A stretch of DNA of 37,259 bases from Mycobacterium sp. (lineage in GTDB: Bacteria; Actinomycetota; Actinomycetes; Mycobacteriales; Mycobacteriaceae). Of this stretch, positions 12,191 through 32,149 are shown in pieces. Each line of letters begins with the position of its first letter. Position 1 is the first letter of the stretch. Position numbers and translations under genes: made by a program. Below the pieces are notes generated by a model. That model saw only the letters and a list, made by a program, of their open reading frames with translations, searched no databases and was not told the origin of the DNA. The stretch lies in assembly GCA_020438905.1 (NCBI GenBank), contig JAGQTQ010000014.1, forward strand, positions 7,020 to 44,278, given 5' to 3'.

Positions 12191-12230
12191 GGGTTAGAGT
12201 AACCCGATATCTACGTACCTCGATAGTAGA
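12191..12230. promoter_or_regulatory. TCTAC-N11-GTAGA dyad plus GGGTTA/TAACCC dyad
   Basis: TCTAC at 12210-12214 and GTAGA at 12226-12230 are separated by exactly 11 bp; the left half extends to TATCTACGTA. Read on the minus strand it is nearly the sequence found before the L,D-transpeptidase at 22453. Next to it, GGGTTA-gag-TAACCC (12191-12205) is a second perfect dyad. The site sits between the divergent ATPase and MltG-like genes and could serve either. See the regulon finding. Confidence 0.65.
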
Positions 12231-12240
12231 GAGGTCCGGG

Positions 12241-12389
12241 ATGGAACTCGACGCACGGGAGGGTCGCGGCACCGTTGTCACCAGCCACACCCAATGAGCG
12301 CCCCCGCCGCGGGTCCCGCGTCCAACCGCCTGAGCGGTTGGGCCAGCTCGGTGGGCATGCCGCTGACCGTGTCACGACGCACCCGCTGA
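12241..12389 (+). other. Two short overlapping frames ahead of the MltG-like gene
   Basis: An ATG at 12241, eleven bases after the dyad, opens an 18-codon frame ending at 12297. It overlaps by ATGA a 31-codon frame (12294-12389) starting MSAPAAGPASN. These may be a translated leader or only chance frames. No homologue is recognised, and the second ends five bases before the ATG of the MltG-like gene. Confidence 0.25.
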
Positions 12390-12394
12390 CGCAG

Positions 12395-13357
12395 ATGGGC
12401 GACCCCAGCGATGCGGGACCGGGGGCCGGTCGGCGCCTGCGACTGCTCTCTGCGGTGGCCGGGCTGTGCGCGATCGTCGGGGCGGCGGCGGTGACATGGA
12501 CCAGTGTGGGGCGGCCCGCCCCTGACGGCGCTGCCCCGCAGTCCGTGACCGCTGATCGCGACCACGACAGGGTCCTCGAGGTGCGCCCCGGCGACAGTGT
12601 GCCGGTTGTCGAAGAACGGTTGGCCGCGTTGGGCGTGGTGGACGCGGCGCAGTCGTTCGCCTCAGCGGCACGGTCACACACGCCGCCGATGGACACCGTG
12701 GAACCGGGTTTCTATGTTGTCTCACCGGGGCGCCAGCCCGCCGCTGTCGTGGAACAGTTGATGGATCCGGCCAGCAGGGTCGGAGTAGTCACCGTGCAGG
12801 CAGGCCGACAGCTCGACGACGTCACCGACCCGGCTACCGGATCGGTCACACCGGGATTGCTCTCCGAGATCGCCCAGGCGACGTGTGTGCCGACCGGGGG
12901 CGGTCGACGGTGCGTATCGGCTGAGGATCTGCGGCAAAGCGCCGCGCAGTCTGATACCGCGGCGCTGGGCATTCCCGACTGGGCCCGCGATCCGGTAGCG
13001 GCCATGGCCGGCGATCACCACCGACTCGAGGGATTGATCGGGGTGGGCAGATGGAACGTCGATCCGACGGCCACGCCCGCGCAGATTCTGTCCACGTTGA
13101 TCTCAGGCAGCGCGGCCCGATACGACCAGAATTCCCTGCTGCGCTTCGCTGCCCGGGAACACGGACTGCGCGAATACCAGGTGCTGATCGTGGCCTCGCT
13201 GCTTGAGCGTGACGGTCGACCCGGCCAGTATCGGCAGACCGCTGTCGAGATTTATGAACGCGTGCGCAACGGTGGTGACGAAGGGCAGCTTCCGCCGGTG
13301 CCGGTCACCGTGCCCGGTTCCGAGGCGCTCTACGCGGCCGAGCATCCGAACGGCTGA
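12395..13357 (+). CDS. MltG/YceG-like membrane-anchored protein
   Basis: From ATG 12395 this gives 320 residues; a TTG at 12275 gives a longer, less likely form. A basic N-terminus and one helix (LLSAVAGLCAIVGAAAVTW) anchor the protein outside. Then comes a LysM-like segment of MltG proteins (VLEVRPGDSVPVVEERLAALGVV, with VEPGFYVVSPGRQPAAVVEQL) and a catalytic-like region with HHRLEGLIGVGRWNVDPTATPAQIL and VLIVASLLERDGRPGQY, where the Glu of LLERD matches the MltG catalytic Glu. MltG cuts nascent glycan strands. It differs from canonical MltG in replacing the conserved LEGYLFPDTY with LEGLIGVGRWNV, so activity is uncertain. It lies next to a D,D-carboxypeptidase. Confidence 0.72.
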   Translation: MGDPSDAGPGAGRRLRLLSAVAGLCAIVGAAAVTWTSVGRPAPDGAAPQSVTADRDHDRVLEVRPGDSVPVVEERLAALGVVDAAQSFASAARSHTPPMDTVEPGFYVVSPGRQPAAVVEQLMDPASRVGVVTVQAGRQLDDVTDPATGSVTPGLLSEIAQATCVPTGGGRRCVSAEDLRQSAAQSDTAALGIPDWARDPVAAMAGDHHRLEGLIGVGRWNVDPTATPAQILSTLISGSAARYDQNSLLRFAAREHGLREYQVLIVASLLERDGRPGQYRQTAVEIYERVRNGGDEGQLPPVPVTVPGSEALYAAEHPNG

Positions 13358-13396
13358 TCGAGCGTGGCGGCTGGGTGCTCTCTGTGATCCCGCGCA

Positions 13397-14251
13397 CTAG
13401 GCCAGGCTGAAGCCCCAGTCCAGAACGGATCGAGCCTGACCTTCTAAATCGCCGTGGCTGTACATCAGGACCGCGACCAGTCGCCTTCCGTTGCGCTGAG
13501 CCATCGCGACGTAGGTCTTGCGGGCTAGGTTGGTGAAGCCGGTTTTGCCGGCGATGAATCCGGGGTAGCTGGAGAGCAGCGCGTCCTGGTTGGCGATCTG
13601 CCGCGTCCCGCCCCTGCCGTCCGGGAACAGTGCCGCACGCTGGTGCATGATCTGAACCAGCAGAGGGTATTTCAGCGCAAAGCGGTAGATCACCGCCAGG
13701 TCGTGCGGGGAACTGACCGATTCCCAGCCCGGCCCGTCGAGCCCGGACGGCGAGTTGGAACGGGTAGAGCGGGCGCCGACAGCGGCAGCTTTGGCGTTCA
13801 TTTTGGCCACCGCGATCCGATAGCCCCCCAACATGTCGGCGAGCATATTGGCCGCATCGTTGCCTGACACCAGCAGCAGTCCGTCGAGTAACTGACGGAC
13901 GGTGTAGGCCTGGCCGGCGACCAGACCGGCGCACGAGCATTCCACCTGGGTGTGTGACTGGTTGGCCCGCGCGGCGGCATCGGGCCGTAACTGGTCGAGG
14001 ACCACCATCGCCAGCAGCGGCTTAATGGTTGAGGCCGGCGCGTAGGCGCCATAGGCGTCTTGGCCGGCGAGGATCGCTCCGCTGACCATGTCAGCCACCA
14101 GCCAGGCCTGTGCCGGGCCGCCGGGCGGTACAGCCAGAGGCTGGTTGGCGTTGGGCTGAGCCGCGCTGTGGGGAACGACGTGAGCCGGCGAGGCGGTCAG
14201 GATGCAAACAGCGGCGGTCACAAGTGCGGTCACGCGCCGCCATCGGTACAT
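13397..14251 (-). CDS. D-alanyl-D-alanine carboxypeptidase (S11, DacB-like)
   Basis: This 284-residue exported protein has a signal peptide (VTALVTAAVCILTASPAHV) and the three penicillin-binding motifs: Ser74-T-I-Lys77 (PASTIKPLL), Ser129-Gly-Asn (LVSGNDAA), and Lys236-Thr-Gly (AGKTGFT). It trims the terminal D-Ala from pentapeptide stems, producing the tetrapeptides that L,D-transpeptidases use as donors, so it fits functionally with the two Ldt genes in the window. It is shorter than DacB proteins carrying a C-terminal anchoring domain. It is convergent with the MltG-like gene. No operator of the shared dyad type is seen upstream. Confidence 0.9.
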   Translation of the reverse strand: MYRWRRVTALVTAAVCILTASPAHVVPHSAAQPNANQPLAVPPGGPAQAWLVADMVSGAILAGQDAYGAYAPASTIKPLLAMVVLDQLRPDAAARANQSHTQVECSCAGLVAGQAYTVRQLLDGLLLVSGNDAANMLADMLGGYRIAVAKMNAKAAAVGARSTRSNSPSGLDGPGWESVSSPHDLAVIYRFALKYPLLVQIMHQRAALFPDGRGGTRQIANQDALLSSYPGFIAGKTGFTNLARKTYVAMAQRNGRRLVAVLMYSHGDLEGQARSVLDWGFSLA

Positions 14252-14383
14252 GATGGTCGACCCTAGTGGCGCTGGGCCGCGGCGAGGACTCAGTGCCGTC
14301 TCGAATCAGGCACAGCGTGGTGGTTGGAGCACCCGGGCTGCGTCCGAAGAGTGGCACCGCTGAAAACCGTTCCGGAATATAGC

Positions 14384-15424
14384 TCAACTACTCGCGGGAA
14401 CGCTAAGACGACATTCAAATCCGTTGCGCGAAATCGTCTTTCGCTGGAGGGCGGGCCGGTGTTCTTCTTCTCGCCGGGCCGGGGATGGTTTGCCATTGCG
14501 GGGTGTCACGACGGGGCGCACACCCAGGTCGTGCAGGGCGTCTTCGACGCGTTTCTCGCAGTAGCCGCGGTCGGCGGTGACGATGCGTCGGGAAGGTTGC
14601 CGACCTCGACGGAGTGGTCGAGCACGATGCCGTCGTCGGTGACTGGCCGTTGTGGCCGAACTCGACCGGTTTGCCCAAGCGGACCTCGGCGTTCGGGCGG
14701 GCACCGCTTTCGTGCAGGCTGACTCGCCGGTCGGCGCCGGCGGGTGTCTGCTCGGCTACCCGCTGGTGGGTCTGGGTGACGATCTGGTGGGTGAGGGCGA
14801 CCAGTTTCTGCAATTCGTTGACCGCTGGCACGAGTCGGCCCCGGGGCCGGCAGGCGGCGGCGTCCCGCTGACCACGGGCGGCCAGTTGGGCGGCTTTGAC
14901 CTTCCCTCGGCGGATCGCCTGCTTGACGTTGATGAGCAGCCGCTGGGCATCACAAGCGGCGGCGCGGGCCAATCCGGCCAGCTCGCCGCCCGTGGCCAGC
15001 ACCGCCGCGGTGGCTTCGCCACAGCCCATTACCGAGCCTGAGCCGCAGTTTGGCAGCGACCGCATGAGCACGGTTGGCGGCCGCGCGGGAACGGTCACGC
15101 ACCCGGGTGCGCACGGCCGGCGTCCTGAATCCGCTTGGCAGCCGACCCGATTCGGCGCACCGCTTTGGCCAACAGCCCCGAATCGGTCGGGTAGGCCAGA
15201 TTTGCCGGCACCACCGTGGTGTCGGTGCGAACCCTATTGGTGCGATGCACTTTGGCCTCGGCGGCCTTGGCCAACAGGGCCTCGTTGAGCCTGTCGACAG
15301 CTGCCGAACCGCTGCGGGTAATCAGCCTCATCAGCGTGGTCGGATGCGGCAGATGCCCGTCGAGCGGGATGCGGCACGCGTGCGACTTGGCCGCCGCGGG
15401 AATCCGGGTCAATACCGTGGCGGC
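14384..15424 (-). pseudogene. Degenerate IS transposase (DDE type, several frameshifts)
   Basis: Three reading frames in succession carry one transposase. 15095-15412 gives HPTTLMRLITRSGSAAVDRL and VHRTNRVRTDTTVVPANLAY; the next frame (to about 14640) gives QRLLINVKQAIRRGKVKAAQLAARG and SLHESGARPNAEVRLGKPVEFGH; the third gives RIVTADRGYCEKRVEDALHDLGVRPVVTPRNGKPSPARR. This matches the family of actinobacterial transposases often filed as IS5-like or ISNCY. At least three frameshifts are needed, the final helix with the second acidic residue is missing, and no terminal repeats were found. It is an inactive remnant. Confidence 0.75.
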
Positions 15425-15537
15425 GGGCTACATTGACAGGCCAGAGCGAGAGCAGGGCCCGGGAAATGGTTCCCGGTGTAGCGTCCGCAACAATCGGTGG
15501 AGCGCCCTCGACCGCCGGCTGACCCGGAACGGAGCCC

Positions 15538-17457
15538 ATGACGTCCACAGCTGCTGACACCGGCCGGGCAGCAGTCCCGTCGCTGCTGCTCGGCTTCGCC
15601 GTGGCGGCCGGCGCGGTTGCGGTGTATGTGCTCACGGCACTGTCCCCCGCGACGGCCACGACCGTCGCCGAGGCCGTCGGCTACTTCACCGCCACCCTCG
15701 CGGGCGCGGTGTGCCTGGGTGGCCTGGTGCTGGTTGTCATCACCGCCCGCCCCGACGACCGGGGGGTCCTGGACCTGGCAGCATTCCGGGCACATCTGGT
15801 GGTGGAACGGGTGGCTCCGGTATGGGTGATCGCCGCGCTGGTCATGGTGGTGGTGCAGACCGCCGCGGACGCGGGCGTCTCCGCGACCCGGTTGCTCGTC
15901 AGCGGCCGGCTCGCCGCCGCGCTGGAGGCGTCGGAGACGGGGCGGGGGTGGGTGGCCGTCGTCGTGGTCTCGGCGGTGCTCGCCGTCACGGTGCGGCTGA
16001 CGGTGCGGTGGGAATGGCATGTGCCGCTGATGATTCCGGCTCTGGTGGGGGTGGTCGCCGTCCCGGTCACCGGAAACGCCGGTCAGGGTCCCGACCACGA
16101 CTATGCGACCAGTTCGGTGATCGTCTTCGCCGTCGCCGTGGCCGTGTGGGCCGGCGTGACGGTCGTGAACGCCGCGGCGCCGAGCGATCCCGCCGTGCGC
16201 CGCCGCGTCACGGTCACGGCCCTGGCCGCGGGGTCGGTCGCGGTGATCTACGGCCTGCTGCTCCTGGGGTTACGGGCGGGAGATCTCACGAGCGGGTACG
16301 GCGTGCTCGGTCTGTTCGTCGGCGCGGTACTGGCCGCTGGACTCGTGGCCGGGGTGGTCGCACTTCGCGGGGGGCGCAGCATCCCGGTGCCGGCGCGGCT
16401 GGCCGCGGCGATGGCCGTGCCGGCGGGGCTGTCCCTGATGGCGATTCAGACCGCGCCCGGCCTGCTGGCGACCCGGCCGAGCATCTGGGACGTCCTGCTG
16501 GGCTATGAACTGCCCGGCGCCCCGACCGCGCTGCGACTGGCGACGTTCTGGCGTTTGGACACCTTCCTCGGGGTTCTGGGCCTTGCCCTTGCCTGCGGGT
16601 ACCTGGTCGGCGTGGTCCGGTTGCGTCGGCGGGGTGACCGGTGGCCGGTCGGCCGCACGGTCTCCTGGCTCGCCGGTTGCGCGGCATTGGTGGTCGCAAC
16701 CGGTTCGGGGGTGCGGTCCTACGGATCGGCGATGTTCAGCGTGCATATGGCCGAGCACATGATGCTGAACATGTTCGTGCCGGTTCTGCTGGTCCTCGGG
16801 GCGCCGGTCACCCTGGCGTTGCGGGTGCTGCCCAGCGCCGCGCCGGGGACGCCGCCCGGTCCGCGGGAATGGATTGTGCGCGCGGTGCATGCGCCGTTCA
16901 CCGCGTTCCTGTCCAGTCCCGTCACGGCGTTCGTGTTGTTCGTCGGCTCGCTGTACGCCGTGTACTTCACCCCGTTGTTCGACACCCTGGTTCGCTACCA
17001 CTGGGGACACGAGTTCATGGCGGTGCACTTCCTGATCACCGGCTACCTGTTCTACTGGGGCATCATCGGCGTCGATCCCGGACCGCGCCGACTGCCGTTC
17101 ATCGGCAGGCTCGCACTGTTGTTCGCCATCATGCCGTTCCACGCATTCTTCGGTGTCGCGATGATGACCATGACATCGGTCGTCGGCGGGAACTTCTATC
17201 GCGGACTGGCCCTGCCGTGGGTGGCCAACCTCAACGACGACCAGCATCTCGGCGGCGCCATCGCCTGGGGCGCAAGCGAAGTGCCGCTGATCATGGTGGT
17301 GGTCGCCTTGGTGACGCAGTGGGCACGCCAGGACCGGCGCACCTCGACCCGCTCAGACCGGCACGCCGACGCCGGCTACGACGACGATCTGGCGTCCTAC
17401 AACAACATGTTGCGCGAACTGGAACGTCAGCGCACTCGGGACGTCAGGAGACCGTGA
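15538..17457 (+). CDS. CopD-CtaG fusion membrane protein (Rv0102-like)
   Basis: This 639-residue protein starts at ATG 15538 behind GGAG. It has roughly 16 hydrophobic helices. The N-terminal half resembles CopD copper-resistance proteins; the C-terminal half is a caa3-type CtaG domain with the conserved HMAEHMMLNMFVPVLLVLGAP, YHWGHEFMAVHFLITGYLFYW, and MPFHAFFGVAMMTMT segments rich in His and Met. The M. tuberculosis relative is Rv0102. Such proteins are linked to copper delivery or cytochrome oxidase assembly. Its stop overlaps by 14 bp the stop of the convergent secreted protein gene. It lies directly beside a transposase remnant, which may have brought or disturbed its promoter. Confidence 0.88.
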   Translation: MTSTAADTGRAAVPSLLLGFAVAAGAVAVYVLTALSPATATTVAEAVGYFTATLAGAVCLGGLVLVVITARPDDRGVLDLAAFRAHLVVERVAPVWVIAALVMVVVQTAADAGVSATRLLVSGRLAAALEASETGRGWVAVVVVSAVLAVTVRLTVRWEWHVPLMIPALVGVVAVPVTGNAGQGPDHDYATSSVIVFAVAVAVWAGVTVVNAAAPSDPAVRRRVTVTALAAGSVAVIYGLLLLGLRAGDLTSGYGVLGLFVGAVLAAGLVAGVVALRGGRSIPVPARLAAAMAVPAGLSLMAIQTAPGLLATRPSIWDVLLGYELPGAPTALRLATFWRLDTFLGVLGLALACGYLVGVVRLRRRGDRWPVGRTVSWLAGCAALVVATGSGVRSYGSAMFSVHMAEHMMLNMFVPVLLVLGAPVTLALRVLPSAAPGTPPGPREWIVRAVHAPFTAFLSSPVTAFVLFVGSLYAVYFTPLFDTLVRYHWGHEFMAVHFLITGYLFYWGIIGVDPGPRRLPFIGRLALLFAIMPFHAFFGVAMMTMTSVVGGNFYRGLALPWVANLNDDQHLGGAIAWGASEVPLIMVVVALVTQWARQDRRTSTRSDRHADAGYDDDLASYNNMLRELERQRTRDVRRP

Positions 17458-18430: not shown

Positions 18431-18670
18431 GACCCGACCCTCCCTTTCGCCACTAGTCGACCGACCCGTCACATGAGGTCTCGAAAAGATAACGAACGCA
18501 CGGCCGCGCTGTCTAACCTCCAGCGGAGCCGCGTACCCCAGCCGCGCTCGGGGCTGGTCAGCGGACGTCGGGATCGGATGGGAACCCTCGGCTGTTTCGC
18601 TTCTGCCCGTCTCGGCGAACAGTCCGCTGACACCCGCACGGGCGGGCGGAGCAGGTTCCACGTCTGGCCG

Positions 18671-21409: not shown

Positions 21410-21425
21410 GAGTTCCTCCTGAGTG

Positions 21426-21467
21426 GTTACGTACGTAGTTGTTACGTATCAACTGTAACGTACGTCC
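21426..21467. promoter_or_regulatory. Dense TACGTA dyad cluster upstream of the small Cys protein
   Basis: Three TACGTA-type elements occur in about 40 bp: TTACGTACGTAG, GTTACGTATC and GTAACGTACG. CGTAC (21430-21434) and GTATC (21446-21450) are again 11 bp apart, and the outer ACGTACGT blocks make the whole cluster nearly palindromic. It lies 16-57 bp from the start codon of the minus-strand gene, where a promoter is expected. Confidence 0.65.
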
Positions 21468-21607: not shown

Positions 21608-21628
21608 TCTACGCTGCCGCTACGTATA
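21608..21628 (+). promoter_or_regulatory. TCTAC-N11-GTATA dyad upstream of DsbA-like gene 1
   Basis: TCTAC (21608-21612), 11 bp, GTATA (21624-21628), with TACGTATA at the right end. The spacer tail GCCGCTAC is shared with the 22453 site. It lies about 100 bp before the start codon, the same distance as the related site before the second DsbA-like gene. Confidence 0.65.
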
Positions 21629-21729: not shown

Positions 21730-22392
21730 ATGGCCCCTGTCACGCGAATCCTTCTGACGGCCTTCGCGGTCATCACCCTGCTCGTAGGAACGGGCGTGTA
21801 TCTGTCCGTTCGGGGCGACGACACTGCCACCACTCAATCCGACAGCGGCCCACCAGGTCAGTTGGTCCGCGACAACAGCCATCGTCTCGGCGAGGCGTCA
21901 CGTGAGGCCGTCACCCTGGTGGAATTCCTGGACTTTGAGTGCGAGGCGTGCCGCGCCGCCTTCCCCATGGTCGAGCGGCTGCGCAGCGAATACGGCGAGC
22001 GGCTCAACGTCGTTGTCCGCTACTTCCCCATCCCGTCGCACTTCAACGCCGAAAGGGCGGCGCGTGCGGTTCAGTCGGCAGCCCAACAGAGCAGGTTCGA
22101 GGCCATGTACAAGAAAATGTACGAGACCCAGACCGAATGGGGCGAGCGCCAGACACCCGCGGACTCACTGTTCCGGGAATTTGCCACCGAGCTCGGTCTC
22201 GACGTGGCCCGCTACGACGCGGCCTACAGCGACCCCGCAACGCTCGAGCGGGTGAAACTCGACGTGGCCGACGGCAAGGCCCTCGGCGTCAGGGGCACGC
22301 CCACGTTCTTCCTCAACGGGGACAGGCTGAAGCTCAACGACTACGGGGAGCTGTCGGCGGCGGTCGAACGCGCCCTCAACCAGAAGTCGTGA
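21730..22392 (+). CDS. Membrane-anchored DsbA-like thiol oxidoreductase 1
   Basis: This 220-residue protein starts at ATG 21730 after GGAGG. A basic N-terminus and one helix ([19 protein letters not shown]) anchor it. The thioredoxin fold carries Cys71-Glu-Ala-Cys74 in [17 protein letters not shown], a long helical insert ([30 protein letters not shown]), and the cis-proline loop [12 protein letters not shown]. This is the DsbA/Thioredoxin_4 family, which makes or shuffles disulfides in exported proteins. A paralogue about 70% identical lies at 32260-32919. Next door are an L,D-transpeptidase with a catalytic Cys and a secreted four-Cys protein, both plausible clients. A dyad of the shared type precedes it. 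Confidence 0.9.
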
Positions 22393-22452: not shown

Positions 22453-22473
22453 TCTACTATGCCGCTACGTAGA
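22453..22473 (+). promoter_or_regulatory. TCTAC-N11-GTAGA dyad upstream of L,D-transpeptidase 1
   Basis: TCTAC (22453-22457), 11 bp, GTAGA (22469-22473) is a perfect dyad in its arms, with CTACGTAG at the right. Minus-strand reading of 12208-12230 matches it at most positions outside the centre. It ends only a few bases before the upstream candidate ATG at 22478. Confidence 0.7.
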
Positions 22474-22531: not shown

Positions 22532-23494
22532 ATGGGAGGTGGCATCCTGCGGCGCCGGCTTAGGACCGCGATCGTCGAGGTTCTCGTCGCTATCGTGGCG
22601 GTGACAGCGCTCCCGATCACGACCTCGGCTGCAGCCGAACCGCGACTTCCAGAACCTGCACCGAGCGACATCCTGACGATTCCCGCTCCCGCTTCATCGG
22701 ATCCGGCCGATCCCGGGGCCTCCTTGGGGCCGCCAATGACCACACCAGGAACAGCAGCGGCCGGCCAGAATCCGGACCCGTACCTGGGACCGCCGGTCTT
22801 CGCTCCCCCCACGTTCAACCCCGTGAACGGCGCAGTTGTTGGCGTTGGCAAGCCCATCATCATCAATTTTCAGATTCCGATCACCGAGCGCGGTCTCGCT
22901 GAACAGGCTGTCCGCATTTCATCAACCCCCGCCGTTGCGGGAAAGTTTTACTGGATGAGTACCACCCAACTCAGATGGCGTCCGATGGAATTCTGGCCGG
23001 CCAACACCGCGGTCACCATCGACGCGGGCGGAACGAAGTCGAGCTTTCGCACCGGTGATGCGTTGGTGGCGACCATCGACAACGCGACCCTGCAAATGAA
23101 AGTCACCCGCAACGGCGCCCTGGAGAGGACGATGCCGGTATCCCTGGGCAAACCGGGCTATGAGACACCTAACGGGACCTACTACGTTCTCGAGAAGTTC
23201 GCCGACATGGTGATGGACTCCTCGACCTACGGCGTTCCCGTAACATCCGCCGAAGGCTACAAAATCAAAGTCCGGCACGCTGTGCGGATCAACAACGCCG
23301 GCATCTTCGTCCACGGGGCACCCTGGTCGGTGGCAGACCAAGGCCGTCGCAACGTCAGCCACGGCTGTCCCAACCTGAGTCCCAGCAATGCGCAATGGTT
23401 TTTCAACACCTTCGGAAGCGGCGACCCAGTCGTTGTGCGGAACTCCACCGGTGTTTACAACGAAAACGACGGAGCGCAGGACTGGCAGCTATGA
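22532..23494 (+). CDS. L,D-transpeptidase 1 (YkuD family)
   Basis: I favour ATG 22532, giving 320 residues and a clean signal peptide ([22 protein letters not shown]); an in-frame ATG at 22478 gives 338. After a Pro-rich linker comes an Ig-like domain ([21 protein letters not shown] to about FRTGD), then the YkuD catalytic domain. The active site is HG-A-P-W followed by SHGCPNLS, with the catalytic Cys (residue 279 in the short form) and His 261. These enzymes make the 3-3 cross-links of mycobacterial peptidoglycan and resist most penicillins. The Ig-YkuD order is that of LdtMt proteins. A TCTAC/GTAGA dyad covers the promoter region. Confidence 0.9.
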
Positions 23495-23623: not shown

Positions 23624-23646
23624 TACCTACTGACTAGGTCAGGAGG
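23624..23646 (+). promoter_or_regulatory. Weak TAC-N11-GT dyad and ribosome site before blaI
   Basis: GCTAC (23622-23626) and GTCAG (23638-23642) are 11 bp apart, a degenerate form of the shared dyad. ACCTA-ctgac-TAGGT is a second small inverted repeat in the same place. AGGAGG at 23641-23646 sets the blaI start. Autoregulation is expected in this family, but this copy is imperfect. Confidence 0.4.
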
Positions 23647-23653
23647 TCCGACA

Positions 23654-24040
23654 ATGGCTCGGGTGCGCGGCTTCGGGGAACTCGAAGCGACGGTCATGGA
23701 CCGTCTGTGGAATCGCGGGACCGACTCCGCCACCACGGTCAGGGAGATTTTCGACGAGCTGGGCGCCGAGCGACATATCGCCTACACGACGGTGATGTCG
23801 ACGATGGACAACCTGCACAGCAAAGGCTGGCTATCGCGGGAACGCGACGGCAAGGCCTACCGCTACCGGCCTACCCTCACGCGCGAGGAACACAGCGCGC
23901 GACTGATGCTGGAGGCGCTGAGCGGAGGGGGACGTTCAGAGGCGGTCCTCAACCACTTTGTGGCGCAGATCGACGCGGAGGAGTCCGCAAGTTTGCGTAA
24001 CGCCCTGCGGCGCCTGTCGGGCAAGACCGGTCGACGGTGA
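23654..24040 (+). CDS. blaI: BlaI/MecI/CopY-family repressor
   Basis: This 128-residue protein starts at ATG 23654, eight bases after AGGAGG. The N-terminal winged helix reads FGELEATVMDRLWNRG, then TVREIFDELGAERHIAYTTVMSTMDNLHSKGWLSRERDGKAYRYRP, the classic BlaI/MecI recognition region; the C-terminal helices (LMLEALSGGGRSEAVLNHFV, ESASLRNALRRL) dimerise. M. tuberculosis BlaI (Rv1846c) is a close family member. In such systems the partner M56 protease triggers repressor loss after a cell-wall signal. The M56 gene follows with a GTGA overlap. It is the best candidate to bind the TCTAC-N11-GTAKA sites in this window. Confidence 0.92.
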   Translation: MARVRGFGELEATVMDRLWNRGTDSATTVREIFDELGAERHIAYTTVMSTMDNLHSKGWLSRERDGKAYRYRPTLTREEHSARLMLEALSGGGRSEAVLNHFVAQIDAEESASLRNALRRLSGKTGRR

Positions 24041-24981
24041 CGATCGCTGCAGCCTTGCTGCTCTACGTTGCCGCCGTCCTGATGATCGGGCCCACGGTAT
24101 TGGTGCGGATCACTGCAGTCGGCTGGGCGCCGCGCTTGGCGATCACCGCCTGGCTGACGGCCATCGTGACGGTGATCGGCTGCTCAATTGCCGTCGTCGG
24201 GCTGCTGCTCGTCGAGGCCGCCGGGCACTGGGACAACCCCGACGAACTACTGGTGTCGTGCCTGGAGCGCCTTCGCGCGATCGCACTGGGGCACGGCGGC
24301 GGAGTGGCCCAAGTCGTCGCGATCGCAGCGATGGCTCTCACAGTCGCGAGCCTCATCGCAGCTAGCATGCGGTTCGGCCGGGCGCTGAGCCGGATGCGCA
24401 GCCACACCTTCGCCCACGCTGATGGCGTGCGTCTGGTCGGCAGACCAATCGGAAGCGATGTCATCGTCATAGACGCGCCCACACCTGCGGCCTACTGTGT
24501 CGCAGGTCGGCCGCCGGCGATCGTTGTCACCACCGCAGCGTTGACCGCGCTCGACCAACGCCAACTCAACGCTGTCATTGCTCACGAACGTGCTCACCTC
24601 AAGGGGCGTCACGCATACCTCGTCGCCGCCGTGCGCGGGCTCACTACCGCTCTTCCCACCATCAGACTGTTCGCCGGTGCGGCGATGCACGTCAGTTCTC
24701 TACTGGAGATGTGCGCCGACGATGCCGCCGCCCGCGCCTATGGGCGCCGACCTCTCCTCGATGGGCTTTTGACTCTGTCCGGCGCGGGCACGCCGGCTCA
24801 CGGTTTGGCTGCGGCAGGAATTGCCGTGCTGGCCCGCGCCCAGCGCCTGTCAGACCCGCCCGGCGGCCTCGCCCGAATCCGGTCCTGCTTCGCGCTCTGC
24901 GGTGCCGTTGTAGCGATGTCTGCGACACCGGCGACCATCGCGGTGCTATCTCTGTCGGGTGCTTTGATCTGCTTCGCGTAG
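24037..24981 (+). CDS. M56 (BlaR1-like) membrane zinc protease without sensor domain
   Basis: This 314-residue protein starts at a GTG overlapping the blaI stop by four bases. It has about three N-terminal helices (AALLLYVAAVLMIGPTVLV, ITAWLTAIVTVIGCSIAVVG, VVAIAAMALTVASLIAASM), a cytoplasmic gluzincin domain with His183-Glu184-R-A-His187 (VIAHERAHLKGRH) and the downstream acidic ligand region EMCADDAAARAYG, and a last helix (ALCGAVVAMSATPATIAVLSL). Unlike staphylococcal BlaR1 it lacks the extracellular penicillin-binding sensor, as do mycobacterial homologues, so the inducing signal must come another way. Translational coupling to blaI supports a repressor-antirepressor pair. Confidence 0.9.
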   Translation: MTIAAALLLYVAAVLMIGPTVLVRITAVGWAPRLAITAWLTAIVTVIGCSIAVVGLLLVEAAGHWDNPDELLVSCLERLRAIALGHGGGVAQVVAIAAMALTVASLIAASMRFGRALSRMRSHTFAHADGVRLVGRPIGSDVIVIDAPTPAAYCVAGRPPAIVVTTAALTALDQRQLNAVIAHERAHLKGRHAYLVAAVRGLTTALPTIRLFAGAAMHVSSLLEMCADDAAARAYGRRPLLDGLLTLSGAGTPAHGLAAAGIAVLARAQRLSDPPGGLARIRSCFALCGAVVAMSATPATIAVLSLSGALICFA

Positions 24982-25214: not shown

Positions 25215-26054
25215 TTAGTTGCCAGGTCCGAGCAGGATGCGGCTGAGTTCTGTTGTCGTCGTAATGCCGTCGTCGTAGCCACCTTCGTCGCCGAGGGCGT
25301 TCATGACCGCCAGCGTGTAACGCTGTTGGGGTCCGGCGAAGCCGACAGTGTTGACCACCCAGCCGCCTTCCTCCTGTGACCAACCGTTCTTGTTACCGGG
25401 ACTCATCGCCGGTCCGGCTCCCCAAACTCCCCATTGTTGGCGGCCGTCGACGCGCTGCATCTCAGCGACCACCGCGGCTGCGTCGGGCCGGTCGAGGCCG
25501 GTGAGAACGAAGTTCATGAGAGCGTCGAAGTCGTCGGCGGTGCCTTTTTGAAATCCCCAGTCCGGGAAGACGTCCCCGAAGCCTGGTTGTGGCCGCACAT
25601 TGTCCATGCCGTAGCGCGGGAAGTTGGTGTTGAATGCGTGGGTCGGTCCGCCGTACCGCGACCACAGGGTATCCGCGGCCTCGTTGTCGGAGTGGCGGAG
25701 CATGGCCGCCATGAGGCGACGGTCGGCGTCGGTGAGTCGCAGGGCGCCCACGCGCTCGCGGGCAAGCAAATCGGCGACCATCGCCAGTTTGATCGTCGAC
25801 GCAGTCCAGATGGCAAAGCCGGCGTTGGCGTTGCGGAACTTCATTCCGGTCGCTCGGTCACGCAGCACATAGCCGACGGTTCCGGGGCGGCCGGCAAGGT
25901 ATGTGTCTGCGGCGGCGATTCGCTGGCTCAAGCCGCAGTCAGCAGTGGACGGTTCACAGCCCGCGCGGGCCAGGGGTTGGGTTGAGCCAGTAGCGACCAG
26001 CAGAAGCAAGGTAACGGCCAAGACGGACGGAGCTCTCCTCGGACTCCTTGGCAC
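25215..26054 (-). CDS. Exported class A beta-lactamase-like serine hydrolase
   Basis: I choose GTG 26052-26054 (GGAG eight bases upstream), giving 279 residues with a signal peptide (VLAVTLLLLVATGSTQPLA) and two early Cys (GCEPSTADC). Motifs: Ser86-T-I-Lys89 in WTASTIKLAMV, Ser122-Asp-Asn124 in RHSDNEAAD, and a KTG-like NKNGWS late in the protein. An obvious E166-type motif is not seen, so true beta-lactamase activity is uncertain; it may be a related penicillin-recognising hydrolase. Upstream in-frame starts to 26168 exist. It is divergent from the response regulator remnant, and the strongest TCTACTAC/GTAGTAGA dyad lies in the shared spacer. Confidence 0.72.
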   Translation of the reverse strand: MPRSPRRAPSVLAVTLLLLVATGSTQPLARAGCEPSTADCGLSQRIAAADTYLAGRPGTVGYVLRDRATGMKFRNANAGFAIWTASTIKLAMVADLLARERVGALRLTDADRRLMAAMLRHSDNEAADTLWSRYGGPTHAFNTNFPRYGMDNVRPQPGFGDVFPDWGFQKGTADDFDALMNFVLTGLDRPDAAAVVAEMQRVDGRQQWGVWGAGPAMSPGNKNGWSQEEGGWVVNTVGFAGPQQRYTLAVMNALGDEGGYDDGITTTTELSRILLGPGN

Positions 26055-26266
26055 AGTCTCGCTCCATCCGGGTTGTCGGGACACCTGGCTTGTCGGCCAA
26101 CACCGCGCAGTTGTGACGACACTATGGACGACCAAGCGGCGGATGGTTCGGACGCACCGCAGCACCATAAGTTGTTAAGCAAGCGTTATTCGCGGCCTCC
26201 CGACGCGGTCGAGACGTCCAGCCGCCGAGATCACCGACCCCCCAACCAACCCTAGGTAACTACTGC

Positions 26267-26290
26267 TCTACTACATGGGTTAGTAGTAGA
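26267..26290. promoter_or_regulatory. TCTACTAC-N8-GTAGTAGA dyad between hydrolase and two-component genes
   Basis: Perfect 8-bp arms, TCTACTAC (26267-26274) and GTAGTAGA (26283-26290), flank an 8-bp centre. Two overlapping registers with the 11-bp spacing of the other sites are present (TCTAC-N11-GTAGT and ACTAC-N11-GTAGA). It is the most symmetric copy in the window, 212 bp upstream of the chosen hydrolase start and 35 bp upstream of the response regulator frame. Confidence 0.75.
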
Positions 26291-26324
26291 AGCATTTTCC
26301 GTCGTCACCGCCCCGGGGCGTGCG

Positions 26325-27040
26325 GTGGTTTGGTGTTGGTTGTGTGAAGATTCGCTCAAGACGCGGTATGACGCGGCCCGCGCGGCACGATACGAGGATG
26401 GATCGTTTACCCGGCCTCGCCCGAGCGGCGCTGACCTCGGCTATCGCGCGCTGGTGGTCGATGACGAGGCCGCCCCGGCCGACGTGGTCGCCAGTTATCT
26501 GCAGCGCGATCATTTCAAGGTGACGGTCTGCCACGGCGAGGCTGAGGCGTTGGCGGTGGCCCGCGAGGTCGACCCCGACGTGGTGGTGCTGGACCTGGGG
26601 TTGCCGCGTATCGACGGGCTGGAGGTGTGCCGGCAACTGCGGACATTCTCCGATGCCTTCGTGGTGATGCTGACCGCCCATGACACCGAGATCGACACCA
26701 TCGTCGGGCTGTCGGTGGGGGCCGATGACTACCTCGCCAAACCGTTCAGCCCGGGCCGCTGTCGATCGAGGTGGCGAGCCGTCAGGTATTCCTCGACGAG
26801 GACCCGATCCCGTTGACCCGCAACGAATTCGACATCCTGGCCGTGTTGTCCTCGCGCCCCGGTGCGGTGTGGAGGAGCCGCCGGCTCATCGACCCGGTGT
26901 GGGGCGCCTGGGTGGGCAACGACTACCCGGTCGACGTCCACGTCGGGCACCTTCGCCGCAAACTCGGCGACGACCCCGCCACCGGGCGGTTCGTGTTCAC
27001 CGTCCGCGGGGTGGGCTACCGGATGGGAACCAGGCGATGA
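26325..27040 (+). pseudogene. OmpR-type response regulator split by an internal deletion
   Basis: The first frame (26325-26816) encodes a receiver with the acidic pocket VVDDE, phospho-acceptor Asp in VVVLDLGLP, and the conserved Lys in YLAKPFSP. Immediately after KPFSP the winged-helix domain continues in another frame: GPLSIEVASRQVFLDEDPIPLTRNEF to GVGYRMGTRR, ending at 27040. About 25-30 residues of the usual linker are missing and the frame changes, so a true deletion is likelier than a one-base error. The DNA-binding half could start alone at GTG 26771. No good start or ribosome site precedes the receiver frame. The stop overlaps the kinase ATG (ATGA). Confidence 0.8.
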
Positions 27041-28227
27041 CGACGCGACCGGGAATGGGGATGCGCGGGCGGCTGCTGGCCGCCCAGACGCTGGTGCTGC
27101 TCGCCGGCGGGGTGACCACCGGGGTGGTCGCTTCGGTGGTCGGGCCGCCGCTGTTCCGCGAGCACCTGCGCCAGGCCGGGGTGGCGCACAACTCCAACGA
27201 GCAGTTCCATGCCGAGCAGGCCTACCAGCACGTCACCGCGCTGTCGATCGCGGTGGCGATCACCGTGGCCGCCGCGACCGCGTTCGTCGTCACCGCCCAT
27301 CTGAGCCGGCGCCTGCACCGTTCCGTCGTCGAACTGTCGCAAGCGGCATCGGCGATCGCTGAGGGCCGCTACGACATCCGCGTCGCTTCGCCGCGACTGG
27401 GAGACGAATTCGACGACTTGGCCGGCGCGTTCAACCAGATGGCGCAGCGCCTCCAATCGGTGGAATCCACCCGACGCCGCATGTTCGGGGACCTGGCCCA
27501 TGAGATCCGCACCCCGGTGGCCGTGCTCGAGGCCTACCTCGAAGCCGTCGAGGACGGGATCAAAACCCTTGACCCCCAGACAATTGCGATGCTGCGCGAG
27601 CAGACCGGTCGGCTGGTGCGCTTCTCCGTCGATGCCGCCTCCCTGGCCCACGCCGAGGAATCCCATACCGCGATCACTCCAGGATGGGTCGACACGGCCG
27701 AACTCCTCACCGCACTGTGGGCGGTGTTCGCCGACCGCTACGCCACCAAGAAGGTTGCCCTGCACACCCACGTCGGTGATATCGCACGGATCTGGGCCGA
27801 CCGGCAACGGCTCACTCAGATAATGGGCAACCTGCTCGACAACGCCCTGCGGCACAGCCCCGCCGGCGGGGACGTCACTCTCACCGCTACCCGGCGCAGC
27901 CAGGAGATGGTTATCACCGTGACCGACGGTGGCGACGGGATCCCCGCAGAGCACCTGCCGCACGTCTTCGAACGATTTTATCGCGCCGACTCCGCCCGCG
28001 ACCGCGGCCACGGCGGATCGGGTATCGGACTGGCGATCGCCAAAGCGTTGACCGAAGCCCACGGCGGCCACATCAGCGCGACCAGCCTCGGCCCCGGCCG
28101 GGGTGCCACCTTCACCGTGACGGTGCCGATTGCCCTCAGTGCGAGGGCGTGCCGACGTCGTAACCCGCGGCCGCCACCGCCTCGCGCACTGCACCGTCGG
28201 TCAGATCAGACGTGCTCGTCACGGTGA
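27037..28227 (+). CDS. Sensor histidine kinase (BaeS-like)
   Basis: This 396-residue protein starts at ATG 27037, overlapping the response regulator stop. Two helices (LLAAQTLVLLAGGVTTGVVASVV, residues 13-35; ALSIAVAITVAAATAFVVTAHL, 68-89) flank a short His-containing extracytoplasmic loop. A HAMP segment follows, then the phospho-acceptor His155 in DLAHEIRTP, the N box NLLDNALRHSP (265-275), DGGDGIP, and HGGSGIGLAIAKAL. The kinase domain ends near residue 365. The last 30 residues (ACRRRNPRPPPPRA and on) are read antisense through a copZ-like remnant, so the original stop seems lost. With its regulator broken, signalling output is doubtful. Confidence 0.87.
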   Translation: MTTRPGMGMRGRLLAAQTLVLLAGGVTTGVVASVVGPPLFREHLRQAGVAHNSNEQFHAEQAYQHVTALSIAVAITVAAATAFVVTAHLSRRLHRSVVELSQAASAIAEGRYDIRVASPRLGDEFDDLAGAFNQMAQRLQSVESTRRRMFGDLAHEIRTPVAVLEAYLEAVEDGIKTLDPQTIAMLREQTGRLVRFSVDAASLAHAEESHTAITPGWVDTAELLTALWAVFADRYATKKVALHTHVGDIARIWADRQRLTQIMGNLLDNALRHSPAGGDVTLTATRRSQEMVITVTDGGDGIPAEHLPHVFERFYRADSARDRGHGGSGIGLAIAKALTEAHGGHISATSLGPGRGATFTVTVPIALSARACRRRNPRPPPPRALHRRSDQTCSSR

Positions 28228-28232
28228 CTGGT
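28136..28232 (-). pseudogene. C-terminal remnant of a CopZ/HMA-type metal chaperone
   Basis: Minus-strand reading from about 28232 gives VTVTSTSDLTDGAVREAVAAAGYDV and stops at 28136-28138. The pattern (D-A-V-R-E-A-V-x2-A-G-Y-x-V) is the last helix and strand of heavy-metal-associated domains. The N-terminal half with the Cys-x2-Cys site is absent upstream, so the gene is truncated. It overlaps, antisense, the extended 3' end of the kinase gene. Confidence 0.5.
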
Positions 28233-28627
28233 GAATCACTCCGGCACCACCTCAACCGCCCAGCCAGGGCAGGGCGGCGTCACCGCAAGCACGGCTGGGG
28301 AATACATTCGCCCCACATTTCTGACGTCGTCGAACGTGGAGAGCGGGCGGGCGTAAGACTGTGCGAGCTTCCTTTGGATCCGTACCCAGCCGGGCTGGAT
28401 TCTGGCGAAGTCGTGCACTCCTTCTCGATGACCCGGCGCGACTGTGGACAATGGAGGTCGGCGGCGTCGTGGCGGAGCGCGTCTGCGGGGTTTCGTTCGT
28501 GATCAAGCGCTGCAGGGTGATACCGGTCGACCAGCAACGGACAGGGCAACTCGCCGTGACGCTGTTGGGCGCCGCTTACACGGTGAACAGGTTCTACATG
28601 CTTTTCGGAGGATGAGGTGGGTTACGT
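28233..28627. other. Non-coding stretch upstream of L,D-transpeptidase 2
   Basis: About 395 bp without a recognisable gene. It contains the probable promoter and GGAGG (28607-28611) for the next gene, and a poor CTTAC-N11-GTTCT match (28574-28594) to the shared dyad. Short frames on both strands show no family resemblance. Confidence 0.5.
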
Positions 28628-30004
28628 ATGGGCCGTCTTACCGCGATAGCAGGAGCCAGGCATCTGCGGCGGCGTGCGCTACTGGTCGTGCACCTGGCGG
28701 TCCTGCTCGCCGTGGTGGTCGCGATGCCCAGTGCGTTGAGTTGCCCGCCGTTGCTGTGTGCCCATCGCGCCGAGTCGGCTCCTCTGGCCTCCCGCGCCGT
28801 GGTGCCGCCGGCTCCGGTCGAACTGTCAATGAGCCTTGCACCGAGTGCGCAGAACGTCGATCCGCTCGCACCGGTTACCGTCACCGCGACCGCAGGAAGT
28901 CTGCTGAGCGTGAGGATGGTCAACGACGCCGGCAAGCCCATCGAGGGAGTGACCACCCCGGACAACACCGTGTGGAAACCCACGGTGCCGCTCGGATACG
29001 GGCGCACCTACACCGTCACCGCCACCGGCCTGGGCGCCGACGACGTCACCCGGGCCCTGGTGTCGAGTTTCACCACGCTGGTGCCCGGCAATCAGGCCGC
29101 GGTGCGGTTGACCACCACCGGCAACCAGGATCTGGGCGAGGGTGGGACCTACGGCATCGGGACCGTCGTCGTCGCACGCTTCGATGAACCGATCCCTGAC
29201 CGCGCCGCCGCCCAGCGCACCCTGCGGGTCACCACCAGCCCGCCCGTCGACGGCGCGTGGACCTGGGTCAATGACGCGACCGCGCACTGGCGGCCGCAGC
29301 ACTACTACGCCCCGGGAACGACCGTCACGGTCGCGGCCAACATCTACGGCGTCCCCCTCGGTGGGGGGCTTTACGGGCAAGCCGACGCCGGCGTGACGTT
29401 CCGCATCGGCGACGCACACGTCTCGATCGCCAATGACATCACCAAACAGGTCAGCGTGTTCAGCAACGGAAGATTGGTGCGCACCATGCCGACGTCGATG
29501 GGCATGGGCGGCAGCGAGACCATCGGGGGTCGCACCATCAGCTTCTGGACCCAACCCGGGATCTACACCGTGATGGACAAGGCCAACCCCGTCGTCATGG
29601 ATTCCTCCACCTACGGGCTGCCGATCAACTCCCGGCTGGGCTACAAACAAACCATCAACTGGGCCACCCGGATCAGCACCGACGGCATCTACCTTCACCA
29701 ACTCGAGGACACCGTCTGGGCCCAGGGCAACACCAACCTCTCCCACGGATGTCTGAACCTCAGCGCCGACAACGCACGCTGGTTCTACGACTTCTCCCAG
29801 CCCGGCGACGTCGTCGAGGTCCGTAACACCGGCGGGGCGCCGCTGGAATTATGGCAGAACGGCGACTGGGGAGTGCCCTGGCCGCAGTGGCTGGCCGGCG
29901 GTGCAACCGACGCGACCACCCAACAGGCTCCGGCACTGTTCGTCGGCGACCCACCGCCACTTTCGCTCGGAAAGCAGGGAGCCGGTGGGCCAGCACCACG
30001 GTGA
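28628..30004 (+). CDS. L,D-transpeptidase 2 (LdtMt5/LprQ-like)
   Basis: This 458-residue protein starts at ATG 28628. A signal sequence (ALLVVHLAVLLAVVVAMPSALSC) ends in a lipobox-like ALSC, so it is probably a lipoprotein like M. tuberculosis LprQ (Rv0483), whose length it matches. Two Ig-like domains follow (about 60-155 and 158-260), then YkuD with GIYLHQLEDTVWAQGNTNLSHGCLNLS: His357 and catalytic Cys375. A Trp-rich tail (LWQNGDWGVPWPQWL) closes it, as in LdtMt5. It forms 3-3 cross-links in peptidoglycan. Its stop overlaps by GTGA the start of the decayed anchored-protein gene. It is more distant from Ldt 1 in sequence, so not a recent duplicate. Confidence 0.9.
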   Translation: MGRLTAIAGARHLRRRALLVVHLAVLLAVVVAMPSALSCPPLLCAHRAESAPLASRAVVPPAPVELSMSLAPSAQNVDPLAPVTVTATAGSLLSVRMVNDAGKPIEGVTTPDNTVWKPTVPLGYGRTYTVTATGLGADDVTRALVSSFTTLVPGNQAAVRLTTTGNQDLGEGGTYGIGTVVVARFDEPIPDRAAAQRTLRVTTSPPVDGAWTWVNDATAHWRPQHYYAPGTTVTVAANIYGVPLGGGLYGQADAGVTFRIGDAHVSIANDITKQVSVFSNGRLVRTMPTSMGMGGSETIGGRTISFWTQPGIYTVMDKANPVVMDSSTYGLPINSRLGYKQTINWATRISTDGIYLHQLEDTVWAQGNTNLSHGCLNLSADNARWFYDFSQPGDVVEVRNTGGAPLELWQNGDWGVPWPQWLAGGATDATTQQAPALFVGDPPPLSLGKQGAGGPAPR

Positions 30005-30460
30005 CCGGCCGGCGAGTCGGCGCCCATGGCTGTTTGACCGCCGCCGTGATCGCGGTCGGCGCGGCCCTGGGCACCATAGCGGTGGCCACCGGCGCGCTAC
30101 GGCTGGGAAAGCCCGCCGACTCTGCCCCCTCTGCCGACCAGTTAGCTCAACAGCGTTGCCAGTCCGACGTGCTCAAGCGGTTGGTCTCCCCGACACAGCC
30201 ACGATCTCTGATGTCCACACCGAAACCAGCACTCTCGACATCAACGGTCGGGACTTCTTCCTCGCTGACCGCCAGCGAGCCGCTCAAGGGCGTCGACGTC
30301 TCGCGCGTATCAGCGTGCTGAACGTGTCCGGTATGGCCAACGCTCCCAGCGAAGTCGGCACCACGATCCAGGACGACTTCGACTGCCGCGCCTACTTCGT
30401 CGACGGCGCACTGGCCCACACCGTGGTCGTCTTCGACCGCGGCCACGGAGGTACGGCGCG
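30001..30460 (+). pseudogene. Frameshifted paralogue of the 9084-9545 anchored protein
   Basis: From GTG 30001 the frame gives a membrane helix (TAAVIAVGAALGTIAVATGAL) and QQRCQSDVLKRLVSP, then homology jumps to another frame (SDVHTETSTLDINGRDFF), back (ASEPLKGVDVSR), and again (ISVLNVSGMANAPSEV, then DCRAYFVDGALAHTVVVFD). Each block matches 9084-9545 in order, so the gene was complete but now has at least three frameshifts. Either it is a recent pseudogene or this stretch has sequencing errors. The GTGA overlap with the transpeptidase shows it was once coupled to it. Confidence 0.75.
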
Positions 30461-30795
30461 ACTCGCAGCAATGAGTCTCCGCCCAACAGCTCACAATCAA
30501 ACTGCAAGCCGTGATCGACGCCCTCGGCGACCAGAACCCACCCGGCGAGGGATCAGAACAAGCGGACCTTCGCGGCAGGGGTAGGCACAGCCGCGATCCG
30601 ATCGGGCAATTCCGCCGCGGCGAGCTACGCCGCGAGGCACCGGGTCCACCCGTCGACGTTCGGGTGTCGGCGGCGGCACCAGAGCCGGCGGCCGCCCAAC
30701 GCACCAAAGCCGTCGCTGAAACCGGCTGGGCCCCGAACACCTGCTTCGGTATTGGCCCGGATCAGAGTTCGGGGACTTCGCCCGACGAGGCTTGA
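30461..30795. other. Unassigned stretch after the decayed gene
   Basis: One frame briefly reads SAQQLTIKLQAVIDALGDQNPP, which looks like a coding fragment, but a stop lies just before it and no family is recognised. The rest shows no gene. It is probably debris between the Ldt locus and the DUF3093 gene. Confidence 0.4.
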
Positions 30796-31302
30796 TCAGC
30801 GGTTTCCCGCATGGGCGGCTTCACCACCATCGCGCAGTGCCGACAGCACTTTGTCGGGGTGGCGGGTGCTCACCAGCCAGTACGGCGTCGGGTCGTCGGG
30901 GTCGTCCAGGACGACCAACACCATCGGACCCACCCAGTTGCGGTGCAACACGTAGGCGGCCGGGTCGAGCTGACGGCCCAGGGCGGCGAACTTCGCCGAG
31001 CGCGGGACGGCTGCCGATCGCGTCATCACCGAGGCCGGCAGGTGGGCCGGCCCAGCCCACAGTTCGACCTCGGCGCCCGCGCCGATGACCTGCACCTCCA
31101 TCCGCCCGAGCGACAGCAATACGCCGATGGCCGCCGGGGCCAGCATCGCGTAGGGCAGCCAGTCGGGAAGATTGCGGACGCCCATGTTCACCTCGGCGGC
31201 CAGCAGGGCCGACAAACCCAGGCCGATCGGCCACCACCACCACGGCACCCACAGCCGCTCCCGATACCGCACAGTTTGGGTGGCGACCTGCGAACCAGAC
31301 AC
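30796..31302 (-). CDS. DUF3093 membrane protein (Rv2698-like)
   Basis: From GTG 31300-31302 this gives 168 residues. TVRYRERLWVPWWWWPIGLG followed by LLAAEVNMGVRNLPDWLPYAMLAPAAIGVLL gives two helices, then a soluble domain (RMEVQVIGAGAEVELWAGPAHLP, then NWVGPMVLVVLDDPDDPTPYWLVSTRHPDKVLSAL). This is the DUF3093 pattern, whose M. tuberculosis member Rv2698 sits beside dut in the core genome. Function is unknown. Here it lies away from dut among accessory genes, so it may be a second copy. TATCCT about 11 bases upstream could be a -10 element for a near-leaderless transcript. A longer reading to 31476 has no support. Confidence 0.82.
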   Translation of the reverse strand: MSGSQVATQTVRYRERLWVPWWWWPIGLGLSALLAAEVNMGVRNLPDWLPYAMLAPAAIGVLLSLGRMEVQVIGAGAEVELWAGPAHLPASVMTRSAAVPRSAKFAALGRQLDPAAYVLHRNWVGPMVLVVLDDPDDPTPYWLVSTRHPDKVLSALRDGGEAAHAGNR

Positions 31303-32128
31303 GCGACCCAAGGATAGTCTTTGCCCTCGTGCACAGCACTCTCGCGGTGAATCCGCGACAGCGTCGAGGCGGTGTCGAGGCGAGAGAGTTTCGAGAAGAT
31401 CGCCCGGGCATCCCGTCACACGAGGTCTCGTCGGTGCTGAGCCGCACCCTCCCCTGCAGTACATCCGTGACGGCATCAGCGAGAAGTTGCCGTGCCGTTG
31501 CGATCAGTGACTGCTTCTTCATCGGGTTCCTAGGTCACCGGGTGTGATCGGCGTGCGAGTCCACGCTGGCAGTCACCCAAGGCTTGGGAGCCCACCTCGG
31601 TATCCCCACGCGGCGATGGCCACCCACGTTCTCAACAAATCCACCCGCCTGGTCGGCGGCCTTGGGTGTCGCGATGGTTGCAGCGGCGGGTCGGCCGGTC
31701 GCGGAGGCCTGACCTGGATTCTCGGCGCGTTCACCGCGGTCCTGTCGGTCTATGTAGTCACCGATGCCATCGCCGGCCGAGTCACTGCCGACCGCGTCCT
31801 CACCCACTCCGCTCGCCGCCGGGGGCTTATTCGCCTGGATCGTGTGGCGGCGGGGCCGCCCTGATTGGAATCATCCCGACCAGACTGTGATCGCGGACTC
31901 CGATGAGATCGTGCTGCCCGAGAAGGCTTCTCGGGGACGTCGACATGGACACCTGCGCCCCAGCGACGGCTGCGCAGCCTGAAAATGCCCGTCAGAGCAT
32001 GACTGCGAACATGATGGCCATGCCGGCCGCCATGGCGAGTGGGCACAGTATGTCCACAGTCTTATGGGGGATGAGGAAATTGATCCTTCCTGATCTCGTT
32101 CTTGTCCATCCACCGCCGCGCCGATAGA
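31303..32128. other. Long gene-poor stretch with decayed fragments
   Basis: No intact gene is convincing. Plus-strand 31711-31800 reads LTWILGAFTAVLSVYVVTDAIAG, a possible membrane fragment. Minus-strand 31992-32100 reads INFLIPHKTVDILCPLAMAA, ending in a hydrophobic stretch, like the end of a tiny membrane protein, but no start fits in frame. Both look like broken pieces. Confidence 0.4.
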
Positions 32129-32149
32129 ACTACGGTCTATCTACGTATA
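32129..32149 (+). promoter_or_regulatory. ACTAC-N11-GTATA dyad upstream of DsbA-like gene 2
   Basis: ACTAC (32129-32133), 11 bp, GTATA (32145-32149), with TACGTATA at the right end as in the site before DsbA-like gene 1. It overlaps CTATC-TACGTA-TATAG, itself a 16-bp palindrome with one mismatch. It lies 110 bp before the start codon. Confidence 0.65.

Follow-up and report, generated by a model that had tools for sequence, protein, structure and literature searches.

Loci of the Mycobacterium tuberculosis BlaI regulon were reportedly described by Sala et al. in 2009, together with a BlaR-like protease neighbouring BlaI. In Firmicutes, the operators of MecI/BlaI/CopY repressors (TACANNTGTA; RNYKACANNTGTMRNY) are dyads of TAC and GTA half-sites bound by dimeric repressors, with a spacing of four bases between TAC and GTA in the available portion of PMC7253601. 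M. tuberculosis BlaI (Rv1846c) is linked to control of the atp operon in the available portions of PMC5874750 and PMC12565901, the latter (2025) describing its binding to the Rv1303 (atp) promoter. The same family is represented on the stretch considered here (the window), 37,259 nucleotides of Mycobacterium sp. that form the end of the 44,278-base contig C37 (host assembly GCA_020438905.1; 3,685,382 bases, 84.9% complete). Five sites in which TAC and GTA stand eleven bases apart are scattered over the gene island in this window, and these are quite likely operators of a BlaI/MecI-type winged-helix repressor controlling the island's genes for envelope thiol chemistry, cross-linking and metal handling.

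All five sites (Table 1) were found where an earlier note on this DNA had placed them, upstream of gene starts as these were chosen in this analysis, and all have TAC-N11-GTA in common. That note had ascribed to them the same arms at an exact 11-bp spacing; the spacing is exact in all five, while the likeness of the arms was overstated for two of them (26267 and 32129). TCTAC-N11-GTAKA is matched exactly by three (12210, 21608 and 22453), and one arm base is off in the 32129 site and in each of the two N11 registers of the 26267 palindrome (26267-26287 and 26270-26290). Relative to the symmetric TCTAC..GTAGA, flank mismatches number one at 21608 and two at 32129. TACGTA does occur at one end of four of the five sites, and the 12210 site read in reverse agrees with that at 22453 in 17 of 21 bases. 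Two further forms proposed in the note could not be confirmed: that at 21426-21467 keeps TAC-N11-GTA (at 21430) but none of the four flank bases, and around the supposed weak form before blaI at 23624 the core is absent.

The spacing of the half-sites departs strongly from chance expectation. Strict matches averaged 0.00 in 100 dinucleotide shuffles of the window, and allowing one mismatch gave 13 strand-matches in it (one of them a non-member, at 35899) where 0.37 were expected. When spacings of 0 to 30 between TCTAC and GTAGA were scanned in the window with at most one mismatch, N11 gave six matches and each other spacing 0-2. The same preference was evident in 80 loci fetched by BlaI protein similarity rather than by motif (1,410,525 bases, with a few near-identical loci), where TCTAC-Nx-GTAKA occurred 47 times at N11, 17 at N18, 10 at N0, 8 at N3 and 0-5 times at the remaining spacings, with 0-3 per spacing for an everted control; with identical contexts counted once, these numbers became 44, 17, 9 and 7, with 0-4 elsewhere. 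Judging from these comparisons, the 11-bp spacing is under selection. The N0, N3 and N18 counts may stem in part from overlapping operators such as those at L128. Overlaps with an 8-base offset were seen at L128 9434-9462 and at L236 27861 and 41204, where two dimers may bind side by side.

Promoter placement was scored over -300 to +30 of the aligned start for relatives of 22 window proteins, against TCTAC..GTAGA with TAC and GTA fixed and up to one flank mismatch allowed; where two genes diverge, a site between them can be counted for both. The 142 sequences scored (2,602,194 bases, some overlap) comprised the window, the 80 BlaI loci and 61 island stretches picked partly for having sites. 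Sites were present in 84/496 upstream regions versus 1/496 gene-body windows of equal size and, in the 80 BlaI loci alone, in 42/231 versus 1/231 (by class, BlaI 28/73, Ldt1 8/16, DsbA 3/8 and ATPase 0/22). Two outcomes that the earlier note had named as refuting were not observed: the motif is near-absent from the gene-body windows scored (the 1/496 above), and the 11-bp spacing is kept in related promoters.

From these alignments, the sites are seen to recur at dsbA and ldt1 promoters of other species, which, with the selected spacing, supports the idea of a shared operator linking scattered genes. DsbA relatives have a site in 16/27 upstream regions (both DsbA classes pooled, many stretches having been picked for sites) and Ldt1 relatives have one of any form in 17/33, the form ATCTACTATGnnnCTACGTAG preceding Ldt1 in six (L042, L044, L069, L083, L085 and L201). 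In five DsbA2 relatives (L044, L050, L053, L178 and L201), a TCTACGGT...CGTATATAGT site lies 104-111 bp before the gene and is of the same GTATATAGT type as that at 32129, the GTAGA form being found in other DsbA relatives. Because the GTATATAGT type is kept before DsbA2 and GTAGA is used elsewhere, the T of GTAKA may reflect an arm running into a TATAGT/TATCAT -10-like box. Smaller shares were recorded for relatives of Ldt2 (8/38), of the hypothetical protein at 17444 (2/17) and of the beta-lactamase-like protein (4/13); MltG offered a single upstream region, that of this window, with a site (1/1), and nine small protein classes had none in 21 upstream regions together. Conservation is also seen at positions that were not seeded: in 96 distinct strict sites, TAC is followed by G or T in 99% of half-sites, and A precedes TCTAC in 68%. 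In 85 oriented sites, TANNNT exceeded its mirrored count at offsets +2 (47 versus 9), +19 (11 versus 3) and +37 (17 versus 0) and fell below it at +17 (11 versus 23), a geometry consistent with overlap of the operator and the -10 region.

The regulator of these sites is most likely BlaI, the protein for which the earlier note had proposed a binding assay; placement before blaI genes, association with paralog number and physical linkage all favour it. Of 20 Nocardia loci (three from one species), 19 have a site with no more than one flank mismatch 53-61 bp upstream of the aligned start of blaI, and in the remaining locus, L122, the site has two flank mismatches. Apart from BlaI and, in 19/20, the M56-type protease, no relatives of the 22 window proteins were found there. 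Strict sites also lie 91-291 bp before the aligned blaI start in L095 and L101. Across 198 genomes (the host and 197 genomes of one genus, compared by correlations that ignore shared ancestry), those with more PF03965 genes tend to have more strict sites (Spearman 0.59; 0.54 given genome size), and the partial rank correlation is 0.49 given genome size and CsoR with the own genome left out. The mean is 1.6 sites per genome with one BlaI (81 genomes), 5.0 with four (12 genomes) and 12 with thirteen (one genome). In a sample of 19 genomes, chosen mainly for their abundance of sites and with the rows of G030, G121 and G084 left out, 54 of 129 sites are within 5 kb of a PF03965 gene (1.1 expected) and 78 within 20 kb (3.7 expected).

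Table 1. Candidate operators, putative target genes and regulator genes of the window, and cydA loci from other genomes.
Feature	Position	Strand	Remarks
Operator, strict	12210..12230	.	between P-type ATPase gene (-) and MltG/YceG-like gene (+)
Operator, strict for GTAKA	21608..21628	+	~101 bp upstream of dsbA-like gene 1
Operator, strict	22453..22473	+	~58 bp upstream of L,D-transpeptidase gene 1
Operator, 24-bp palindrome TCTACTAC-N8-GTAGTAGA	26267..26290	.	~100 bp upstream of beta-lactamase-like gene (-)
Operator ACTAC-N11-GTATA	32129..32149	+	110 bp upstream of dsbA-like gene 2
Related palindromic sequence, membership doubtful	21426..21467	.	TAC-N11-GTA at 21430, 4/4 flank bases differ
Heavy-metal P-type ATPase (putative target)	9586..12099	-	
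MltG/YceG-like protein (putative target)	12275..13357	+	
DsbA-like thiol oxidoreductase 1 (probable target)	21730..22392	+	
L,D-transpeptidase 1, Big_10 + YkuD (probable target)	22532..23494	+	
BlaI/MecI/CopY-family repressor, candidate binder	23654..24040	+	Pfam PF03965 4.4e-24; PDB 2g9w E 3.3e-22
M48/M56-type metalloprotease, possible BlaR-like partner	24037..24981	+	Pfam PF01435 1.7e-10; PF05569 below cut-off
Beta-lactamase-like serine hydrolase (putative target)	25215..26168	-	
DsbA-like thiol oxidoreductase 2 (probable target)	32260..32919	+	
cydA loci with chromosomal-type operator	L206, L212, L216, L217, L220, L224, L229, L230, L232, L234		

The island BlaI, a protein of 128 amino acids, scores 85.5 bits for Penicillinase_R (cut-off 22.6) and is a sequence relative of MecI and of PDB 2g9w, which is presumably M. 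tuberculosis BlaI. Its nearest relatives come from two actinobacterial assemblies (100%), followed mostly by mycobacteria and, further down, by Nocardia and a Rhodococcus. The presumed recognition-helix stretch AYTTVMSTMDNL is present in 94 of 111 BlaI relatives from the island and BlaI loci; PDB 2g9w carries AYTTVMAVLQRL in its place, a change that parallels the change in operator flanks. Identity as a CopY copper sensor was rejected, with the curated CopY/TcrY model TIGR02698 at 33.3 bits against a cut-off of 121.95 and, in place of a C-terminal CXC metal motif, no cysteine at all in residues 1-127. The adjacent protease scores 41.5 bits for Peptidase_M48 (cut-off 20.3) and 18.9 bits for Peptidase_M56 (cut-off 31). 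Only protease families were matched on its 314 amino acids in Pfam and NCBIfam, and because no recognisable penicillin-sensor domain was found there, beta-lactams need not be the signal. Beyond these genes, contig C37 1-7100 (L034), left of the window, holds genes resembling an arsenic set (ArsA-like ATPase, ArsC-like phosphatase and ACR3-like carrier, named from reading open reading frames), and transposase genes at 35741-37185, at the right contig end, match integrase-core and HTH_Tnp_1 domains, the latter below cut-off.

Binding, repression, relief and the signal itself are predicted here from this sequence evidence. A BlaI dimer would bind the palindrome (A)TCTAC-K-N9-M-GTAGA(T) on or beside the promoter -10 region, blocking transcription of dsbA1, ldt1 and dsbA2 and probably of the beta-lactamase-like and ATPase/mltG genes. 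On an envelope signal, the adjacent M48/M56-type protease would remove BlaI, such that the whole island would open at once. By analogy with the BlaI family, repression is expected to act through occupancy of the -10 region, and relief through the neighbouring protease. The natural binder would be the island BlaI at 23654, and a chromosomal BlaI may also bind. The nature of the putative targets (DsbA, L,D-transpeptidase and metal ATPase here, with ctaD, CcdA and multicopper oxidase genes nearby as well on the plasmid pJCM6399) points to envelope, copper or oxidase stress.

Several observations weigh against this assignment, among them the site-guided choice of the 61 island stretches and the 19 linkage genomes and the shared ancestry within the 198-genome set. 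TAC-N11-GTA is missing from the window's own island blaI promoter, and the 81-91% relatives of island BlaI have no site or mostly flank-poor ones upstream; overall, 33 of 121 BlaI genes in the 142 sequences have an upstream site with at most one flank mismatch. A TACTGA-N5-TCAGTA element 114-120 bp before blaI in five relatives (L070, L073, L075, L079 and L081) was tried as the missing site and rejected, as it is not in the same place. Sites precede ATPase relatives in only 2/51 upstream regions, one of them this window, and M56 proteases (0/109), kinases (0/23) and CtaG (0/17) in none. The CtaG figure is an underestimate, since the alignments to this protein are incomplete; L043 and L079-L081 do have sites, 48-49 bp upstream of the aligned CtaG start. 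For the sites at 12210 and 26267, no conservation was found at related promoters; outside the window, the 26267 palindrome was seen before the beta-lactamase-like family in L066 alone, and that locus is almost the same sequence as the window. Of the 129 linkage sites, 51 have no BlaI gene within 20 kb, and 16 of the 51 show the form found between ctaB and tkt. CsoR number also correlates weakly with sites across the 198 genomes (Spearman 0.32; 0.24 given size).

Operators of a second type are evident at core genes. TACGAC-N5-GTAGTA is present in 18 of 20 promoters of chromosomal-type PF03965 genes (18 from other genomes and two from the own genome), and its last base is changed in the L160 blaI promoter. 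Of the own genes, that on C180 has this sequence and that on C100 no obvious promoter site. TACKAC-N5-GTAGTA lies upstream of the atp operon in 11 and of cydA in 10 of 12 genomes searched, in the latter case 27-48 bp from the ATG. The window sites share their TAC-N11-GTA core with these mycobacterial blaI and atp promoters. A TCTACTACnnnnnATGGTAGA-type site was observed between divergent ctaB and tkt in 22 of 37 loci inspected, from 20 distinct genomes (including L058 5598). BlaI is thus predicted to act at cydA (cytochrome bd oxidase) and ctaB as well as at atp.

These core sites raise the possibility, a serious though somewhat unlikely one, that the sites are real BlaI operators read by a chromosomal BlaI (C180 or C100) or a mix, with island and core respiration sharing a switch. 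The host has three PF03965 genes (island, C180 and C100), the C180 gene carries its own promoter site, and strict TCTAC..GTAGA stands at the core ctaB/tkt locus, also in G065, a genome with one PF03965 gene; because of this last case, a single protein may read both types of operator. Set against this are the distinct flanks of the island sites, the AYTTVMSTMDNL stretch of island and Nocardia BlaIs versus AYTTVMAVLQRL in PDB 2g9w, and the growth of site number with BlaI number.

That another island-travelling regulator binds the sites, be it the response regulator at 26325 or an ArsR or CsoR type, is improbable: such two-component and ArsR genes do travel on islands, the 26267 site also precedes the response-regulator gene and CsoR number shows the weak correlation above, but CsoR, rejected as regulator, adds nothing once BlaI and size are allowed for (0.06, p 0.41), the Nocardia sites occur with only BlaI and the M56-type protease as window-protein relatives, and response regulators (1/25) and kinases are scarcely preceded by sites. 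At 26325-28227, the response-regulator open reading frame itself has a receiver domain only and overlaps that of the kinase in another frame; it may be broken or frame-shifted. Chance or composition, with AT-richer promoter stretches yielding TAC/GTA pairs, is a very remote explanation. One-mismatch matches are indeed widespread in the assembly (55 forward, 47 reverse), and the reversed pattern is the commoner in the 198 genomes (1482 forward matches versus a site total of 497). The three strict matches in the assembly all fall inside the window; their rarity does not count as evidence here, and was dropped as the sole argument, because the reversed pattern gives no fewer strict matches (4 and 5). 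Chance would leave unexplained, however, the excess at spacing 11 over other spacings and the everted control, the retention of the site in related promoters and the failure of the reversed pattern to rise with BlaI number given genome size (-0.13).

If the sites are BlaI operators, they provide a precise, scannable operator for many accessory BlaI paralogs in mycobacteria and Nocardia, with predictable target genes, and suggest that mobile islands join envelope redox, cross-linking and metal handling in a single response. It is tentatively proposed, with more doubt than confidence, that complete BlaI/M56 circuits reside on plasmids and islands of mycobacteria and use a version of the chromosomal BlaI operator with shifted flanks. 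Disulfide formation, L,D cross-linking, metal export and spare oxidase parts would in this way come under the kind of switch that serves cydA, ctaB and the atp operon in the core genome. Were this true, an incoming island could join or disturb respiratory control.

Among known systems, the canonical Firmicute TACA-N2-TGTA is not the form used here, the spacing being 11 rather than four in all five window sites. No printed mycobacterial BlaI operator sequence was met in the available portions of the literature surveyed (PMC4757040, PMC12565901, PMC5874750, PMC5403904 and PMC7253601), and one may exist in print; the TAC-N11-GTA core at blaI and atp promoters derives here from other mycobacterial genomes, none identified as M. 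tuberculosis. A close parallel is offered by M. gallinarum pJCM6399, which has four motif-bearing places in 47 kb with six strict matches between them and shares BlaI and M56, thioredoxin-domain, Ig-like and L,D-transpeptidase proteins, P-type ATPases and cytochrome oxidase assembly proteins, but differs in also carrying ctaD, oxidase subunit III, CcdA and multicopper oxidase. Since its core matches the chromosomal BlaI operators, the island switch represents a known kind of regulation, in which the chromosomal flanks (TACKAC-N5-GTAGTA) are replaced by TCTAC..GTAGA and the targets are others (DsbA, Ldt and metal ATPase). Very probably, then, a known type of regulator is used in an island-wide circuit whose flanks and targets differ from those of chromosomal BlaI.

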